A DNA stretch of 64,000 nt, from the NCBI RefSeq assembly GCF_900129295.1, contig NZ_FQUU01000008.1:62001-126000 (forward strand), in the 5' to 3' direction. This document shows positions 7,675-53,806 of this stretch, one piece after another. The DNA is from Flavisolibacter ginsengisoli DSM 18119 (GTDB lineage: Bacteria > Bacteroidota > Bacteroidia > Chitinophagales > Chitinophagaceae). The notes below the pieces were generated by a model. It saw only the letters and a program-made list of their open reading frames with translations. It had not been told where the DNA came from and searched no databases. The position numbers and the translations under genes are program-made. Position 1 is the first letter of the stretch, and every line of letters starts with the position of its first letter.

Positions 7675-8787
7675 TTAAAAAAGATTAAGCTGGCCCGGTG
7701 CACATTTGCCATTTCCTTTACTTAACAGAGAGGGGAAATTAGAAATCGTAATACCCAGTAAACGGATCTTTGCTCCCTCGGGCTCTGTTTTTTCCAGAAG
7801 TTCCCTGGCAGCGGCAAGTATTGAATTGTGATCATTTAAACAGTCAGAAAATGACTTGCTACGGGTAATGATTTTGAAATCACTGTACTTGATCTTTACA
7901 GTAATGGTTTTCCCCTTCAGATTGTGTTTATCCAGGCGCCTGCAAACCGTTTCAGTAATTTTTTCCAATGCCAGTTCCATTTCTTCCAGTTTTGTAAGAT
8001 CATATGGAAAAGTATCTTCTGCTCCTATCGATTTGGTTTCTTGTTCTGGTTCAACTGGTCTATTATCAATTCCTCTCACTATTTTGTAGTAAAAGCTGCC
8101 TGCCTTGCCAAAATGCTTTCTCAATTCCTGCTCACTAAGCTTTTTAATGTCACCACCGGTATGCAGTCCTAAATTTTTCATCTTTTCCGCGGTTACCTTT
8201 CCTACCCCATGAAACTTTTCAACTGGTAGATCAGAAACAAATCTTTCTATCCTGGAAGGCCCAATAAAAGTGATGCCGTCAGGCTTATGCATATCAGATG
8301 CTATTTTAGCAATGAACTTATTAATAGATATTCCAGCAGAAGCCGTCAATCCCAATTCATTCCTTATAGCACCTTTTATTGCTGTTGCAATGTCTATTGC
8401 AGAACCAATACCCTGTTTATCAATTGTCACGTCAAGGTATGCTTCGTCGAGCGACAATGGCTCTATAATATCAGTATATCGCTCAAAGATGGCACGGACC
8501 TGCCTGGACACCTCTTTATATGCTTCAAAACGAGGCTTTACAAAAATAATCGCGGGGCACAACTGTATAGCTCTTTTAGAAGGCATGGCAGACCTGACAC
8601 CAAATTTCCTTGCTTCATAACTGGCAGTCGCCACAACTCCTCCACGCCCTTGGGGAGAACCTCCAACAGCAATAGGTTTCCCTCTTAAATCGGGGTTATC
8701 ACGTTGTTCCACCGAAGCATAGAATGCATCCATATCAATATGAATGATCTTCCTTAAAACTTTTGGGGTTTCCTCCACAATAGACAA
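7675..8787 (-). CDS. dinB: DNA polymerase IV (Y-family, translesion)
   Basis: Error-prone Y-family polymerase for translesion synthesis. Active-site carboxylates are visible: IHIDMDAFYASVEQ (Asp18, Asp20) and SLDEAYLD (Asp114, Glu115). Palm, thumb (HhH segment FHGVGKVTAEKM) and little-finger regions follow in order. The last residues, GQLNLF, form a canonical beta-clamp-binding motif. There is no ATG in a sensible position: the frame opens at a TTG at 8787 just after in-frame stops, with a GTG at 8778 as the alternative, and the conserved RKIIHID block starts only about 12 residues in. CAAGGGTA at 8791-8798 is a one-mismatch -7 box on this strand, favouring a very short leader. Confidence 0.95.
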   Translation of the reverse strand: MSIVEETPKVLRKIIHIDMDAFYASVEQRDNPDLRGKPIAVGGSPQGRGGVVATASYEARKFGVRSAMPSKRAIQLCPAIIFVKPRFEAYKEVSRQVRAIFERYTDIIEPLSLDEAYLDVTIDKQGIGSAIDIATAIKGAIRNELGLTASAGISINKFIAKIASDMHKPDGITFIGPSRIERFVSDLPVEKFHGVGKVTAEKMKNLGLHTGGDIKKLSEQELRKHFGKAGSFYYKIVRGIDNRPVEPEQETKSIGAEDTFPYDLTKLEEMELALEKITETVCRRLDKHNLKGKTITVKIKYSDFKIITRSKSFSDCLNDHNSILAAARELLEKTEPEGAKIRLLGITISNFPSLLSKGNGKCAPGQLNLF

Positions 8788-25399: not shown

Positions 25400-25474
25400 T
25401 ACTAATATTTACCGGGTTTAATGAAGTATCAAGAACAATACCTTCCAGCTTTGATAATCAACCTTTCAACCGCA

Positions 25475-25515
25475 ATTTTGCCTTTTGAGTTTTGACTTTT
25501 TACTTATCACTTATC
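25475..25515. repeat. Low-complexity TTTTGAC-type tract
   Basis: Degenerate short repeats of TTTTGCC, TTTTGAG, TTTTGAC, TTTTTAC and CTTATCA run directly into the stop codon of the DUF4294 gene. Such pyrimidine-rich tracts are, from memory, common between Bacteroidota genes. Confidence 0.5.
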
Positions 25516-26179
25516 GTCCCGGCCTATACCCCGGCTTGTAAGCATTGTTATACCATGAGCCATTGATCTCCTGTACTATGGCATCGATCTGTCGATCTGT
25601 AGGATTGGTTTGAATGTCAAATTCCTGCTTTAAGCTACTTCCAAAAAAGAAGGCAACCGTCTGGTATAATCTTGCATTGAAGCCACCGCGGTAATCCTTA
25701 ATGATCTCGTAACAATTATTGCCTGTTTCCCGGTATATTAACTTCATGAGTACCTTACCCTGGTACACCGATAGATTGGAAAGGGGTTCTGTGAATTTAT
25801 CCTTGAGTTCTTTTTCCCTCGACTTTATGTAAGCTTTGCGGTCTCTTTTAGCGTTGATACCTACCAGTTGACTATTTACATCATTAATGATAGTAGCTGC
25901 TGATTTAGCATACGGAAGTGTAACATATACTGCATTACGCAGCCTGTTGTATGCTGCCAGAACCTTAGCTAGTTCATCGGGTGATAATTTAGAGACATAG
26001 ACCATATCCATTTCACCATATGGCATCCATTCTCCATTATAATAAATAGCCGGAACTACTATAGTATCATTAACACCCCATTTGGTCGGATTGGGATGTG
26101 AAGAATCTTCCTGCGCCCTGCAGTCCTGTGCTGTGCCAACAAGGATAAAAAATAAGAGTATGGAAATTATCCGGGGCAT
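25511..26179 (-). CDS. DUF4294 domain exported protein
   Basis: 222 residues from the ATG at 26179, which gives a proper signal peptide (MPRIISILLFFILVGTAQ, cleaved near CRAQ). The frame is open 15 codons further upstream, but those add a non-signal segment. The mature part (IVVPAIYYNGEWMPYGEMD, VYVTLPYAKSAATIINDVN, LSVYQGKVLMKLIYRETGN) matches DUF4294, a Bacteroidota-restricted family of unknown function. It is rich in Arg/Lys helices and ends NNAYKPGYRPGR. Monocistronic as far as can be seen. Confidence 0.82.
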   Translation of the reverse strand: MPRIISILLFFILVGTAQDCRAQEDSSHPNPTKWGVNDTIVVPAIYYNGEWMPYGEMDMVYVSKLSPDELAKVLAAYNRLRNAVYVTLPYAKSAATIINDVNSQLVGINAKRDRKAYIKSREKELKDKFTEPLSNLSVYQGKVLMKLIYRETGNNCYEIIKDYRGGFNARLYQTVAFFFGSSLKQEFDIQTNPTDRQIDAIVQEINGSWYNNAYKPGYRPGR

Positions 26180-42307: not shown

Positions 42308-42628
42308 TGAATGACAGCTTTAGAATGAAGCAAGTTCTGGTTATAAATGTAAAGAAAACTATAATATGCTGAAACAGAACTCGGTAAGCCGCCAACTTGC
42401 TTCGGTAAGGCCTGCCTAATATACCTGGTAAATGGACATTTCACTTCATCTGCTGAATAGAAAAGCCATAGCTCCTACCTATTAACGCTATACCTACGCC
42501 CATGATACTGCGTAGTGATTACGCAGTATCATGGGCGTAGATAGGGCTTTGGTATACCGGAGGTAGGAAGAAGATCCTTACAAACCCGATGTAACCAGGT
42601 ATTGCTAAATTTTGTTATTATTTATAAG
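42308..42628. other. Intergenic region dominated by a long hairpin
   Basis: 321 bp between two minus-strand genes, with no ORF. Most of its structure is the hairpin at 42474-42567. No separate promoter for the L,D-transpeptidase gene could be picked by eye. Confidence 0.45.
42474..42567. repeat. Long imperfect palindrome with a perfect 21-bp core stem
   Basis: Core arms 42494-42514 and 42520-42540 are perfect complements (CTACGCCCATGATACTGCGTA) around loop GTGAT. Outer arms CCTACCT (42474-42480) and AGGTAGG (42561-42567), plus GCTATAC and GGTATAC, extend it. There is no T-tract, so it is not a plain terminator. Pieces recur at the end of the window (63952-63971), indicating a dispersed repeat family. 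Confidence 0.8.
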
Positions 42629-43762
42629 TTATAAGTTTCCCCGGGCAGCTTGTTCCCTTTCGATTGCCTCAAATAGAGCTTTAAAATTCCCCTTTCCAAA
42701 ACTTTTAGCCCCCTTTCGCTGTATGATCTCAAAGAAAAGCGTAGGCCTGTCCTGAACCGGTTTAGAAAATAATTGCAACAGGTAACCTTCGTTGTCCCTG
42801 TCAACTAAAATCCCCAATTCTTTTAAGGGCTCCAGGTCTTCATCGATATGTCCTACCCTGTCCAGCAGGTCATCATAATAGCTATTGGGTACTTTCAGAA
42901 ATTCCACACCCCTGCTCATCAGGTCCTTTACAGTTTTTACAATATCATGTGTGGCCAATGCTACGTGCTGCACTCCTTCGCCATTATAAAATTCAAGGTA
43001 CTCTTCTACCTGCGATTTTTTCTTTCCTTCCGCAGGTTCGTTAATTGGAAATTTAACATACCCGTTCCCGTTACTCATAACCTTGCTCATCAGGGCTGAA
43101 TATTCCGTTGAAATATCCTCATCATCGAAACTGAGAATATTTTTAAAGCCCATTACATCTTCATAGAATTTAACCCATGGGTTCATTTGGTTCCAGCCAA
43201 CATTACCAACACAATGATCAACATATAACAAACCCGTATCGGCAGGGGCAAAATGAGGATTGCTCCATGGCTTAAACCCAGGTAAGAATGCACCTTTGTA
43301 GTTTTTTCTTTCAATGAATAAATGTACAGTGTCTCCATATGTATGTATCCCACTCATCACTACTTGGCCTGCTTCATCTCTCAATTGTTGGGGAGCCAAA
43401 TAAGACTGGCCACCTCTTTTGGTAGTTTGTTCCCAGGCACTTGTTGCATCATCTACCATTAAAGCCAGGAATTTAACCCCATCACCATGTTTATATATAT
43501 GGTCAGCTATTTCATTTCCTGGTCTTATAGGAGTAGTAAGCACGAAGGTTAGTTTATGCTGTCGTACAGCATAACTTACTTTATCTTTTATACCTGTTTC
43601 AGGTCCTGCATAAGCCAATGCCTGGAAACCAAAAGCGCTCATGTAATAATGGGCAGCCTGTTTGGCATTGCCTACATAAAATTCAACATAATCGGTGCCT
43701 TGCAGAGGTAAGAAATCGGTTTGGGTATTAGTATTTTCCTTTTGAATAGCAGCAATCGACAT
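42629..43762 (-). CDS. hpd: 4-hydroxyphenylpyruvate dioxygenase
   Basis: Fe(II) enzyme turning 4-hydroxyphenylpyruvate into homogentisate in tyrosine breakdown. 377 residues with two vicinal-oxygen-chelate halves. The C-terminal metal ligands lie in LYVDHCVGNV (His), QHVALATHDI (His) and LFFEIIQRKG (Glu). The GNLF-type product loop appears as KSFGKGNFKALFEAIE. ATG at 43762. Homogentisate dioxygenase, the usual partner, is not adjacent. Confidence 0.95.
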   Translation of the reverse strand: MSIAAIQKENTNTQTDFLPLQGTDYVEFYVGNAKQAAHYYMSAFGFQALAYAGPETGIKDKVSYAVRQHKLTFVLTTPIRPGNEIADHIYKHGDGVKFLALMVDDATSAWEQTTKRGGQSYLAPQQLRDEAGQVVMSGIHTYGDTVHLFIERKNYKGAFLPGFKPWSNPHFAPADTGLLYVDHCVGNVGWNQMNPWVKFYEDVMGFKNILSFDDEDISTEYSALMSKVMSNGNGYVKFPINEPAEGKKKSQVEEYLEFYNGEGVQHVALATHDIVKTVKDLMSRGVEFLKVPNSYYDDLLDRVGHIDEDLEPLKELGILVDRDNEGYLLQLFSKPVQDRPTLFFEIIQRKGAKSFGKGNFKALFEAIEREQAARGNL

Positions 43763-51300: not shown

Positions 51301-51482
51301 CAACAAGCAGGATTCCACTGGGTATTGTAATGGTAGGTGGTATCATGTTTTCCCTTGTATTGACCTTATTTGTAATCCCTGCTATGTATTCTTACCTTTC
51401 TTCCAATAAAAAAAGAAATGAACTGGAAGTATTGGAAGAAGAACAGCTGAAGGAAAAAGAACATGCACAATTATTACATTAA
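48369..51482 (+). CDS. RND multidrug efflux pump permease (AcrB/HAE1 type)
   Basis: 1037-residue inner-membrane proton-driven pump. The N-terminus (SLKRPVLAIVMSILIVVFG) is standard for the AcrB class. The proton-relay aspartates lie in LATGLVVDDGIVVTEN (Asp401, Asp402). Twelve transmembrane segments and two large periplasmic loops fit the length; GLVTKNGILIVEFANQ marks the second half. It exports hydrophobic drugs or cell products; heavy-metal (CusA) type is unlikely given the motifs. Its stop shares one base with the TolC-family gene start (TAATG). Confidence 0.95.
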   Translation: MNISELSLKRPVLAIVMSILIVVFGIIGFKFLGIRDYPAIDPPNINVRTSYPGANPDIIESQITEPLEKAINGIAGIKNITSSSNAGSSNINVEFDLGVDLEAAANDVRDKVSQALRSLPSDLDAPPVVSKADASSDAIISMTVQSSTKNQLELTEWGNNVLLERLQTIPGVSGIQIWGEKRYAMRIWFKPDMLTAYKLTPLDVQNALLRENVELPSGKISGNATELSVRTFGKLNTEEEFNNIIIKNVNGSDIKVKDVGEAVLGPENEESQLRESGIPMIALAIVPQPGSNYVSISDEFYKRYEQIKKEMPEDIKLNIALDQTKFIKKSISEVEETLIISLVLVILIIYLFFRDWLIAIRPLIDIPVSLIGAFFIMYICGFTINVLTLLAIVLATGLVVDDGIVVTENIYKRMEKGMNKWQAAKEGSKEIYFAVIATSITLAVVFLPIVFLQGFVGRLFREFGIVVAGAVLISAFVSLTLTPVLNVKMTRKNIHQHSWFYTRTEPFFRWMEDSYKNALSRFMKVRWIAFVIIAICGGIIYFLGKGIPSELAPMEDRSQFRLALTAPEGTAYDYMDDYVQRVTNFMLDSVPEKETVLSITAPGFISGATNSGMVRVTLVDPKDRTRSQKEIVAMVNKNLSMFNEGRAFAIEEQTIQVNRRGGQPVQFVIQNNNFDKLAQVLPAFIEAAGNNPVLQGVDADLKFNKPELRINVNRLKASELGVSVEDVSQTLQLALSNRRMGYFTKEGKQYGVYGQVARSDRDDPTDLKALYVRNQKGEMIGLDNLVSFEEATTPSTIYHFNRFKSATISAGLAPGKTIGDGIQAMQQIADKLLDDTYTTSLAGNSRDFQESSSNIGFAFFLALGLIFLILAAQFESFIDPFIIMVTVPLAIAGAVLSLWLFDQTLNIFSEIGMIMLIGLVTKNGILIVEFANQSRINGMNKADAVIYASSQRLRPILMTSLAMTLGALPIALSLGAAATSRIPLGIVMVGGIMFSLVLTLFVIPAMYSYLSSNKKRNELEVLEEEQLKEKEHAQLLH

Positions 51483-52798
51483 TGAGACTAAAGAATATTG
51501 CACTGGCCTGTAGTTGTTTGATCGGATTTATTGCAAAGGCCCAAAGACCATTAAGTGTAGAAGAGGCTATTGCCACTTCACTTGCCAACAATTACGATAT
51601 ACAGCTTTCCAGGAATGATTCTGCATTGGCTGCTTTGGATTATGCATTTGCGGATTATGCATTTTATCCCAGGCTGAATGCTAATGGAGGCGTCAACTTC
51701 AATAATAATAACCAGAAGCAGGTGCTTGCAGATGGAACCAAGCGTGAAAGTAAAGGAGTCAAATCCAATGTGGCTACTGCATCTTTAAATCTGAACTGGA
51801 CCCTATTTGATGGTCTGAAGATGTTTATAACCCGTCGCAGGTTAGGGCAAATGGTGGAACTGGGAGAATTGCAGATAAAGAACCAGGTTATAGCAAGTGT
51901 TGCAGACCTGATGCGCACCTACTATGATATAAGCCGCCAGCAACAACAATTGAAAGCCGTTGAAGAACAGATGCAGTTAAGTAGTGAACGCCTTAAACTT
52001 GCGCAGTATAAATTTGAAGTTGGAACAGGCACTAAATCAGATGTGTTGCAGGCACAAATTGATTATAATGCCCAGAAGTCACAACAGCTAACACAACAAA
52101 CCAATATTCTCAAACTGAAGGAGCAGCTGAATAATTTACTGGCCATCCCTTTGAACAATGATTTTACCGTATTAGATACCATTCCAATTCATACCGGGTT
52201 GACATTGGACTCTATCCAGGGTAGCCTAACAGCAACGAATCCACAGTTGCTGTTGGCGCAAAAAAGCCTTGATATTGCCGGACTTGCTTTGCAGGAACGC
52301 AGAGCTGAGAGATTACCCACTGTAAGTTTTAATTCGGCTTATAATTTTAATAGAACAGATAATAAAAGCGTTGTTAATCCATTTCAACCCTTGTTCAGTC
52401 AAAACAAAGGATTGAACTATGGTTTTACAGCTACTATTCCCATCTTTAATGGTTACCTCACCCGCAGGAATATAAGGGCTGCCGAACTGGATATACAATA
52501 CCAGCAGCTAGCTTATAAAAGAAACCTGGCGCAAATCAATACAAGTGTGGCAACTGCTTACAGGGATTATACTTTATACCAGCAAACTCTTTTATTGGAA
52601 GAAGATAATATCAAGCTCGTAAGGGAAAATCTTTTTATTGCCCAGGAACGTTACCGTCTTGGGGTAACAACTTTTCTTGAAATGCGTACTGCCGAACAAA
52701 GCCTTGCAGATGCTACCAATCGACTTATCCAGGCGCGCTATAACACCAAGGTAGCCGAGATAGAATTATTGAGATTGAGAGGCGACCTGGTAAAATAG
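51482..52798 (+). CDS. TolC family outer-membrane efflux protein
   Basis: 438 residues with a signal peptide (ending AKAQ near residue 19). Two long coiled-coil repeats of the outer-membrane-efflux fold are seen (ISRQQQQLKAVEEQMQLSSE with KFEVGTGTKSDVLQAQIDYN; later ENLFIAQERYRLGVTTFLE). It forms the outer channel for the RND pump. Its TAG stop (52796-52798) is the first three bases of the left inverted repeat of the four-helix-bundle cassette. Confidence 0.94.
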   Translation: MRLKNIALACSCLIGFIAKAQRPLSVEEAIATSLANNYDIQLSRNDSALAALDYAFADYAFYPRLNANGGVNFNNNNQKQVLADGTKRESKGVKSNVATASLNLNWTLFDGLKMFITRRRLGQMVELGELQIKNQVIASVADLMRTYYDISRQQQQLKAVEEQMQLSSERLKLAQYKFEVGTGTKSDVLQAQIDYNAQKSQQLTQQTNILKLKEQLNNLLAIPLNNDFTVLDTIPIHTGLTLDSIQGSLTATNPQLLLAQKSLDIAGLALQERRAERLPTVSFNSAYNFNRTDNKSVVNPFQPLFSQNKGLNYGFTATIPIFNGYLTRRNIRAAELDIQYQQLAYKRNLAQINTSVATAYRDYTLYQQTLLLEEDNIKLVRENLFIAQERYRLGVTTFLEMRTAEQSLADATNRLIQARYNTKVAEIELLRLRGDLVK

Positions 52799-52828
52799 TT
52801 TCTTGTTTTTGGTTTATAGTTTCTTGTT
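52796..52828 (+). repeat. Left 33-bp inverted repeat
   Basis: Begins with the TAG stop of the TolC-family gene. It contains two copies of TAGTTTCTTGTT (52796-52807 and 52817-52828) 21 bp apart. The reverse complement of the right repeat matches it except at one base. Confidence 0.9.
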
Positions 52829-52856
52829 GTAGCTTCATCGCGCATTATTCACTCTT

Positions 52857-53261
52857 ATGGCAACTATCAATAAGTTTGAAGAGCTGGAGATATGGCAATT
52901 ATCCAGGAAGTTCTATAAAAGTTTATCTCCGGTAATAGAAATTCTTAAAAACAATAAAGAGTATCGTTTTGCAGAGCAAATGAGATCTGCTTCAGGTTCA
53001 GTAATGGATAATATTGCTGAAGGTTTTGAAAGAAGTAGCAGGCTTGAATTTTTGAATTCACTTGGTATTTCAAAAGGCGAAGTGGGTGAATTAAAGTCTC
53101 AACTCTATCGCTGCCTTGATAATAATTATATCAATTCCGAAGAATTTAATACACTTTATAGTGAAGCGGATATTTTATCACGTAAAATCGCTTCTTTTAT
53201 TATTTATTTAAATTCTGCAGAGCATAAAGGACTAAAATTTAAAGACAGACTGAAATCATGA
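52857..53261 (+). CDS. Four-helix-bundle protein (23S rRNA intervening-sequence/S23 family)
   Basis: 134 residues, normal for the family. The start FEELEIWQLSRKFYKSL and the RSASGSVMDNIAEGFERSS segment are its hallmarks. Homologues are encoded inside 23S rRNA intervening sequences and, in many genomes, as stand-alone genes; a four-helix bundle that forms pentamers is known from structures. Molecular function is unsettled; relatives include the Avd accessory protein of diversity-generating retroelements, but no reverse transcriptase is near. The TGA overlaps the purE ATG (ATGA), so the two are translationally coupled. It lies between inverted repeats. Confidence 0.9.
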   Translation: MATINKFEELEIWQLSRKFYKSLSPVIEILKNNKEYRFAEQMRSASGSVMDNIAEGFERSSRLEFLNSLGISKGEVGELKSQLYRCLDNNYINSEEFNTLYSEADILSRKIASFIIYLNSAEHKGLKFKDRLKS

Positions 53262-53806
53262 ATGAACAAGAAACTATAAACCAAAAACCAGAAACTATTG
53301 TTGTTGGCATCGTTATGGGCAGTGACAGTGATCTTCCTGTGATGCAGGCCGCAGCTGATATACTAACATATTTTGAAATCAGTTTTGAACTTACAGTAGT
53401 GTCGGCCCACCGTACACCATTGCGTATGGTGGAATATGCTTCCGGAGCTAAAGATCGTGGATTGAAACTGATCATAGCAGGTGCTGGAGGTGCTGCGCAT
53501 TTACCAGGCATGCTAGCTTCCATTACTTCACTACCTGTAATAGGAGTTCCTATCAAATCAAGTAATTCAATTGATGGCTGGGATTCTATTCTATCTATTT
53601 TGCAAATGCCCAATGGAGTACCCGTTGCCACTGTTGCTTTAAATGCCTCAAGAAATGCCGGCATACTGGCCGCGCAGTTCATTGGTGCTTTTGACCAAAA
53701 CATAGCTGAAAAGGTTGCTGCCTATAAAGAAAAAATGAATAAAGAAGTATTGGAAAAAGTGCAGCATTTGCAATCTGCTGGCTGGCCCAATACCTTCGAT
53801 AAATAA
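53258..53806 (+). CDS. purE: N5-carboxyaminoimidazole ribonucleotide mutase
   Basis: Purine-synthesis mutase converting N5-CAIR to CAIR. 182 residues; the core is VVGIVMGSDSDLPVMQAA, VVSAHRTPLRMVEYA and IAGAGGAAHLPGMLA, with the catalytic His in SAHRTP. PurE usually starts a few residues before the GIVMGSDSD block. Here residues 3-13 are encoded by the right inverted repeat of the cassette, and no other in-frame ATG, GTG or TTG precedes the first strand, so ATG 53258 must be used. PurK is 6.2 kb upstream. Confidence 0.95.
   Translation: MNEQETINQKPETIVVGIVMGSDSDLPVMQAAADILTYFEISFELTVVSAHRTPLRMVEYASGAKDRGLKLIIAGAGGAAHLPGMLASITSLPVIGVPIKSSNSIDGWDSILSILQMPNGVPVATVALNASRNAGILAAQFIGAFDQNIAEKVAAYKEKMNKEVLEKVQHLQSAGWPNTFDK
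53265..53297 (-). repeat. Right 33-bp inverted repeat, inside purE
   Basis: Reverse complement of the left repeat apart from one base (32/33). It lies wholly inside the purE coding sequence, encoding about residues 3-13 (QETINQKPET). Confidence 0.9.

Follow-up and report, generated by a model that had tools for sequence, protein, structure and literature searches.

In REP/RAYT systems, a gene is bracketed by inverted copies of a repeat. The TnpA-REP proteins are HuH enzymes, the REPs are palindromes preceded by a conserved motif, and the protein groups and their repeats are described as having co-evolved (parts of PMC8266576). These systems, also treated under the names TnpA-REP, REPIN and REPtron, are the closest working analogue of the locus presented here, a gene being tied in both cases to a short repeat dispersed in the genome.

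Two proteins are also of relevance for the comparison. The DGR accessory protein Avd is a pentameric four-helix bundle that is related to S23/IVP proteins and binds nucleic acid, and it works together with a reverse transcriptase and template/variable repeats. TRAP forms a ring, each subunit of which binds one of a series of regularly spaced short repeats; with an unrelated fold, 11 subunits and triplet repeats, it can be likened to IVP by analogy only.

The 23S rRNA intervening sequences (IVS) with an S23p/IVP ORF hold a lone PF05635-type ORF between inverted repeats of about 30 bp, for a total of about 430-500 nt, that of Coxiella having a 28-bp stem and 428 nt, and PF05635 proteins are described as being without known function (parts of PMC4990558). 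Besides, direct repeats of the heptamer TAACTGA were reported in Beggiatoaceae, Cyanobacteria and some Bacteroidetes, where these 7-mer arrays lie just upstream of start codons, are patchily distributed and have no evident spreading mechanism (MacGregor 2015, parts of PMC4679880). The terms S23, four helix, 23S rRNA and intervening are absent from the main text of that paper, which does not make the link with IVP. Similarly, a literature search without preprints and with few subscription papers found no published link between IVP and heptamer or tandem repeats. The IVP gene described below and its flanking repeats, which recur in other bacteria, suggest an undescribed repeat-reading protein system.

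Anatomy of the locus

The window, i.e. the whole stretch of 64,000 nucleotides that was analysed, corresponds to G000:C51:62001-126000 of a 4.68-Mb draft genome. It holds, between a TolC-like gene and purE, an IVP gene that is bordered on each side by an array of five heptads (Table 1). The IVP protein is well above the cut-offs of both PF05635 (99.4 bits, cut-off 33.8, 1.7e-28), its sole Pfam match, and TIGR02436 (91.2 bits, curated cut-off 24). A 33-bp inverted repeat matching at 32 positions had been claimed around this gene in the preliminary description and is borne out: the arms, at 52794-52828 and 53265-53299, are 35 nt long, match at 34 of 35 positions (97% complementary) and are 436 nt apart, and the best inverted-repeat score at the locus is 32, whereas ten shuffles of the flanks averaged 8.9 and did not exceed 15.

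Table 1. Features of the IVP locus, in positions of the window
Feature	Position	Strand	Basis
TolC-like outer-membrane efflux protein gene	51482..52798	+	ORF; PF02321; TIGR01844 below its cut-off
Left array, five GTT-core heptads: GTTTCTT GTTTTTG GTTTATA GTTTCTT GTTGTAG	52798..52832	+	
IVP gene, 134 aa, 23S_rRNA_IVP / four helix bundle protein	52857..53261	+	PF05635, TIGR02436; PDB 2gsc, 2rld
Right array, five GTT-core heptads read inward: GTTTCTG GTTTTTG GTTTATA GTTTCTT GTTCATT	53261..53295 (53295 down to 53261)	-	
purE	53258..53806	+	ORF; PF00731; TIGR01162

Between the arms, neither the ORFs nor the Pfam matches include a transposase gene. The 502-bp unit of the preliminary description does not stand free between genes: the TolC-like stop codon TAG (52796-52798) shares its final base with the start of the left array, the right array constitutes, on the plus strand, codons 2-13 of purE, and the purE ATG overlaps the IVP stop codon (ATGA). 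In the same way, the direct repeat of 21-bp period that had been noted in each arm exists as a spacing but is really 3 x 7, or three heptads, so that the description of the arms as 21-bp repeats is rejected in favour of heptad units. These units, their count of five and the matching of protein and repeat had previously been missed. Two more period-7 arrays are present in the window (25474-25517 and 42609-42638), with no IVP ORF found within 250 bp of them.

A genome-wide search, which had been proposed as a check, reveals that the repeat is not unique to the locus, uniqueness having been one of the refuting conditions set in advance: there are 25 BLAST places at E<=0.001, three of which are the cassette itself and its two cross-matching arms.

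Comparison with the described systems

As in REP/RAYT systems, the IVP gene of the window is thus bracketed by inverted copies of a dispersed repeat. In contrast, IVP is a four-helix-bundle protein whose Pfam matches (PF05635 only) include no HuH (Y1) transposase, and its repeat consists of units in tandem, commonly five of them, solo copies consisting of tandem heptads followed by a TTTAGGT tail, without a palindrome.

The cassette also shares with the 23S rRNA IVS a lone ORF of the PF05635 type, a similar size and inverted repeats able to form a long stem, but it lies between a TolC-like gene and purE instead of in a 23S rRNA helix, and its arms are five-unit arrays that are also dispersed in the genome. 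No Rfam match was obtained at the cassette, the one match outside it being at chance level, and no rRNA-embedded IVP was present in the 20 loci scanned among the 80 of the cross-phylum set described below. In view of the like architecture, the comparison suggests that the 23S rRNA IVS may be one placement of the same element. As for the TAACTGA system, it has one fixed heptamer in the parts of PMC4679880 cited above, whereas the window unit is GTTTNNN and differs from TAACTGA. As regards the reverse transcriptase that accompanies Avd, the two genes adjoining the IVP gene are TolC-like and purE.

Inverted arms at IVP genes in general

The observation of inverted repeats around IVP is confirmed as real and general. 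Among 59 IVP ORFs, 42 have an inverted repeat with a score of at least 14 within about 220 bp and 17 score lower, compared to 8 of 300 control ORFs reaching this score, sampled from 561 other ORFs of the same sequence. The 59 ORFs come from 61 sources, namely the window and 60 stretches, mostly of 16 kb, drawn from score-ranked lists without taking every row and, for all but two, chosen around IVP genes. Enlargement of this set, with which it overlaps, to 170 loci gave 102 armed ones, with a best period of 7 in 72, of 8 in 25 and another in 5. Finally, a cross-phylum set without matched control, made of the best 80 of 589 loci from Acidobacteriota, Planctomycetota, Pseudomonadota, Bacillota and others, has 46 loci at or above a score of 14 and 34 below. 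The link between repeat and IVP, whose absence had been named in advance as what would refute the idea, is therefore a general one. PF05635 itself is present in 86 of 116 genomes of the family.

Arrays of period 7 are concentrated at these genes: of the 188 detected in the 1.01 Mb of the 61 sources, 65 lie within 250 bp of an IVP ORF, i.e. in about 53 kb, the number of arrays far from IVP being inflated by two stretches (L130 and L131) chosen for their arrays rather than for an IVP gene. They form the main periodic class in these sources: period 12 gave 82 arrays and period 8 gave 54, while none of the remaining periods from 4 to 12 exceeded 19.

Near position 7839 of another stretch of the window's genome (L126, G000:C30:69500-85500), a divergent IVP gene has a weak inverted repeat only (score 11); by eye, it adjoins an apparent signal recognition particle RNA, upstream of a transaldolase-like gene.

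Repeat units and protein lineage

The units of the arrays match the lineage of the IVP protein. A single fixed repeat for all IVP genes is rejected, as a search for AAAC heptads alone gave none beside the other IVP loci examined. Unit length, 7 or 8, tracks the IVP tree with 9 changes against 20.8 after shuffling (0 of 500 shuffles as low), in a tree of 95 rows that has many unresolved forks and long branches and from which 7 of the 102 loci, with another or unclear period, were dropped. Besides, for pairs at different junctions, arm similarity rises with IVP similarity (Mantel r 0.157, a value that none of 300 permutations attained), being 8.07 for the 258 pairs at an IVP identity of at least 55% compared to 4.85-5.21 below, although some of these "different" junctions may be shared ones missed by the flank comparison.

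In the window's own lineage, window-type IVPs (40-53% identical) mostly have GTT-core heptads at various junctions, 5 of 33 entries having no chain of three GTT on either side, and the non-core heptad positions vary between loci while agreeing between the two arms. The matching extends to arrays distant from any IVP, which resemble the arms of their own genome's IVPs: among 121 such arrays, the 100 with same-genome arms to compare have a mean percentile of 0.69 and 33 of them are in the top 5%, genomes with several arm loci having more chances to match.

Number of units

Five is a common count of units. In the own genome of the window, 40 sites, including the two window arms, exactly match four GTTT heptads followed by GTT, and none of the 40 reaches a sixth GTT, as checked among the matches with up to two mismatches. 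A backward control pattern has no exact match in this genome and, when two mismatches are allowed, 25 matches compared to 76; it also has matches in other genomes (65 in G057 and 61 in G129), perhaps to other heptad arrays. In 32 solo copies, the left boundary is sharp and falls on the first unit, and the tail, TTTAGGTNGNAGAG, is conserved. Shorter arrays are present as well, in the C43 region of the genome.

The same count recurs elsewhere. At the TolC-purE junction, the four loci bearing an IVP have five GTT units in 8 of 8 arms, and at a Flavobacterium-type junction exactly five AG at 8-nt spacing are found in 46 of 58 arms, these sequences being related and non-independent. The 66 arms of the window clade are more diverse, with five units in 22, four in 14, three in 7, more than five in 10 and fewer than three in 13, and some arrays elsewhere count 10 or more. 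At the end of a contig, the 19 overlapping exact matches in G131:C11:2-158 are one GTT array of about 23 units.

On the protein side, the two PDB matches, 2gsc and 2rld, have five chains each, and a Xanthomonas protein is described as a toroidal homopentamer (part of PMC4990558). One subunit would read one unit.

Proposed mechanism

The best explanation, held with middling confidence, is a REP/RAYT-like system in which an IVP pentamer recognises five-unit arrays. IVP would be a ring-shaped homopentamer reading its own kind of tandem array, typically of five units, each 7 or 8 bases long, whose core depends on the lineage (GTT in that of the window, AG in others), at one unit per subunit. Two inverted arrays would bracket the IVP gene, while single arrays and IVP-less inverted pairs would be dispersed in the genomes with a matching IVP. 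By acting in trans, IVP would cause array-bounded pieces to be copied or homogenised, those landing after a stop codon and ahead of the following start codon being tolerated. To our knowledge, IVP has no known catalytic or transposase motif, and it may need host replication or recombination to drive the spread. The anatomy, the frequent count of five, the matching of protein and repeat and the joint occurrence of arrays and IVP are observed, whereas we infer the binding of the array by IVP, the reading of one unit per subunit and the IVP-driven spread.

A broader reading can be put forward more tentatively, and falls short of even confidence. Across phyla, five-subunit IVP rings would read five units of 7 or 8 bases, lineages would shift the core and length of the unit, and matched arrays, as inverted pairs at IVP and as solo copies, would spread at operon junctions. 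One and the same system would then underlie free-standing IVP genes, the IVS of 23S rRNA and the heptamer repeats known from several phyla. A candidate partner sequence makes the function of PF05635 proteins testable by one binding assay, and this might be a case in which the number of subunits of a protein determines how many times a DNA unit is repeated. Heptamer repeats, for which the parts of PMC4679880 cited above see no evident spreading mechanism, may also be explained in this way.

Junctions with and without an IVP gene

The preliminary description had proposed a cassette mobilised in trans, which is supported in part, and a comparison with relatives. The repeat is indeed dispersed, its link with IVP is general, and the TolC-purE junction lacks IVP in 16 relatives, 14 of which belong to the same genus, but related IVPs are found at this junction in three other genera (71, 67 and 54% identical in L404, L405 and L406, respectively), so that the IVP-less junctions may be losses. 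Neither a precise empty site nor a target duplication could be demonstrated, the IVP-less junctions being too diverged or containing other elements. No transposition event was seen, and no two almost identical IVP cassettes were noticed in one genome. Among these 16 junctions, both arrays are retained in three (5/5, 5/5 and 5/6 units), the right array only in three and neither in ten. This series would fit the loss of IVP leaving its arrays behind, or a stepwise gain, and does not prove insertion.

The Flavobacterium-type junction, whose genus label is read from a like junction in named Flavobacterium loci, holds different IVP lineages in different genomes. An octad-type IVP is present in the loci best matching the query, in 28 of 30 of which the IVP ORF was read, whereas L292 and L296 have IVPs 50-52% identical to that of the window, with GTTT units, and in further genomes the place is taken by inverted heptads without IVP or by an inverted element that is unrelated. 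In this survey, 2 of 20 stretches were without anchor and one had a run of N. The IVP gene at this junction has a median dN/dS of 0.073 (range 0.022-0.166; 101 related pairs from 28 sequences), which is purifying selection, as on a working protein that is retained because either the host or the element needs it.

The individual loci of this junction also show other arrangements. In L303 (G332:C4:188500-189700), an octad-type IVP cassette is followed by the 3' end of a partial second IVP and then by another right arm, an arrangement that resembles the outcome of recombination between two cassettes. The IVP-less inverted heptads (AAGAGCC AAGATAA-like) of L284, L286, L287, L288, L289, L300 and L302 span about 90 nt and are also terminator-like. 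In L285, L291, L293 and L298, the IVP-less inverted element has CCTCTCC...GGAGAGG-like ends and seems to be a separate repeat family.

The first alternative to the REP/RAYT-like system is a host regulator, in which IVP would bind five-unit arrays in mRNA in a TRAP-like manner and control termination, stability or translation at operon junctions, the arrays spreading as useful sites. The positions of the cassettes speak for it: 57 of 84 armed ones lie between two consecutive genes of like strand, after the stop codon of the first and before the start codon of the second, and, among the arms having such a neighbour, the edge is within 12 nt of the codon in 50 of 70 left and 41 of 64 right ones. 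Low dN/dS and long retention at one junction would also fit a host function, and the same junctions recur in different genera, namely TolC-purE and, by eye, argC-argD, hisD-hisC and leuB. However, presence is patchy, one junction can carry different IVP lineages, the arms persist without IVP at TolC-purE of L025, L029 and L032, and the target genes appear, by eye, unrelated. A host regulator is considered as possible but rather unlikely.

Possible pairing of the arms in RNA

An RNA folding back on itself had also been suggested for the locus. The transcript of the window locus does form a long hairpin when folded (-136.6 kcal/mol, z -5.47; none of 100 shuffles did as well), but across the family the arms are not enriched in mismatches compatible with G-U pairing on the sense strand: 49 against 69 antisense in 122 loci (p 0.08), next to 179 transversions, and even fewer, 15 against 53, at the Flavobacterium junction. 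In the 24 cassettes of the latter set, the agreement between left and right units is 0.653 in register and 0.599 out of register. With no G-U excess and this slight register effect, it is unlikely that RNA pairing generally accounts for the likeness of the arms.

These data bear on a second alternative to IVP-driven spread, i.e. an RNA intervening sequence outside rRNA, whose arms would pair in the transcript, with excision of the IVP part by RNase III and tolerance of the insert by the operons. The architecture is the same as that of the 23S rRNA IVS, the size is similar and the hairpin folds well. On the other hand, besides the G-U mismatches, the arrays of the own genome are mostly partnerless, with just 2 inverted pairs within 900 bp around 30 array loci, which leaves this alternative improbable.

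Co-occurrence of arrays and IVP across genomes

Arrays and IVP co-occur across genomes. Stretches sampled at a contig start or a fixed coordinate, and thus blind to arrays, contain 19 period-7 arrays in 298 kb from 20 genomes with 9-16 PF05635 matches and none in 328 kb from 20 genomes without PF05635; contig 2 was used for three of the IVP-rich genomes, once to avoid a known IVP gene. Arrays are borne by 9 of the 20 IVP-rich genomes compared to 0 of the 20 IVP-free ones (p 0.0012, relatedness uncorrected), and the period-12 control is alike in both, with 44 in the IVP-free and 36 in the IVP-rich set. No IVP ORF was found inside the sampled stretches of the 20 IVP-rich genomes.

A similar picture emerges from 112 genomes of the family, for which the counts of GTT matches and of IVPs are assumed to come from the same genomes, every genome named in one being in the other. 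Of the 31 genomes with a window-type IVP, 15 have at least five exact GTT matches, overlapping ones in a long array being counted separately, compared to 5 of the 81 that lack such an IVP (p 1.3e-6, relatedness uncorrected); at least one match is present in 21 of 31 and 17 of 81, respectively. Co-occurrence of the repeats with the matching gene, as known from REP/RAYT, is thus also found here, relatedness being uncorrected, with exceptions in the 10 of 31 genomes that have a window-type IVP but no exact match and in the 17 of 81 that have a match without it.

A third alternative would be MITE-like arrays moved by another enzyme acting in trans, IVP being cargo. This would account for the dispersal of solo arrays and IVP-less inverted pairs, as well as for a protein in which we know of no catalytic motif, but not for the absence of arrays from the stretches of IVP-free genomes, nor for an array core and period that track the IVP lineage, and it is therefore deemed very doubtful. 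Finally, slippage-prone microsatellites adjoining IVP by accident have next to no probability, even though one survey, cited in PMC4679880, found heptanucleotides to outnumber the other classes of long simple repeats in most of its genomes. The control ORFs, the period controls, the IVP-free genomes, the recurrent number of five units and the fact that the two arms are inverted with respect to each other all speak against such an accident.

In the own genome of the window, one stretch (L131, G000:C43:20001-36000) contains a dense cluster of GTT arrays, all in one direction, together with two AAGTCAA-like arrays that resemble the arms of L125, another IVP of this genome.
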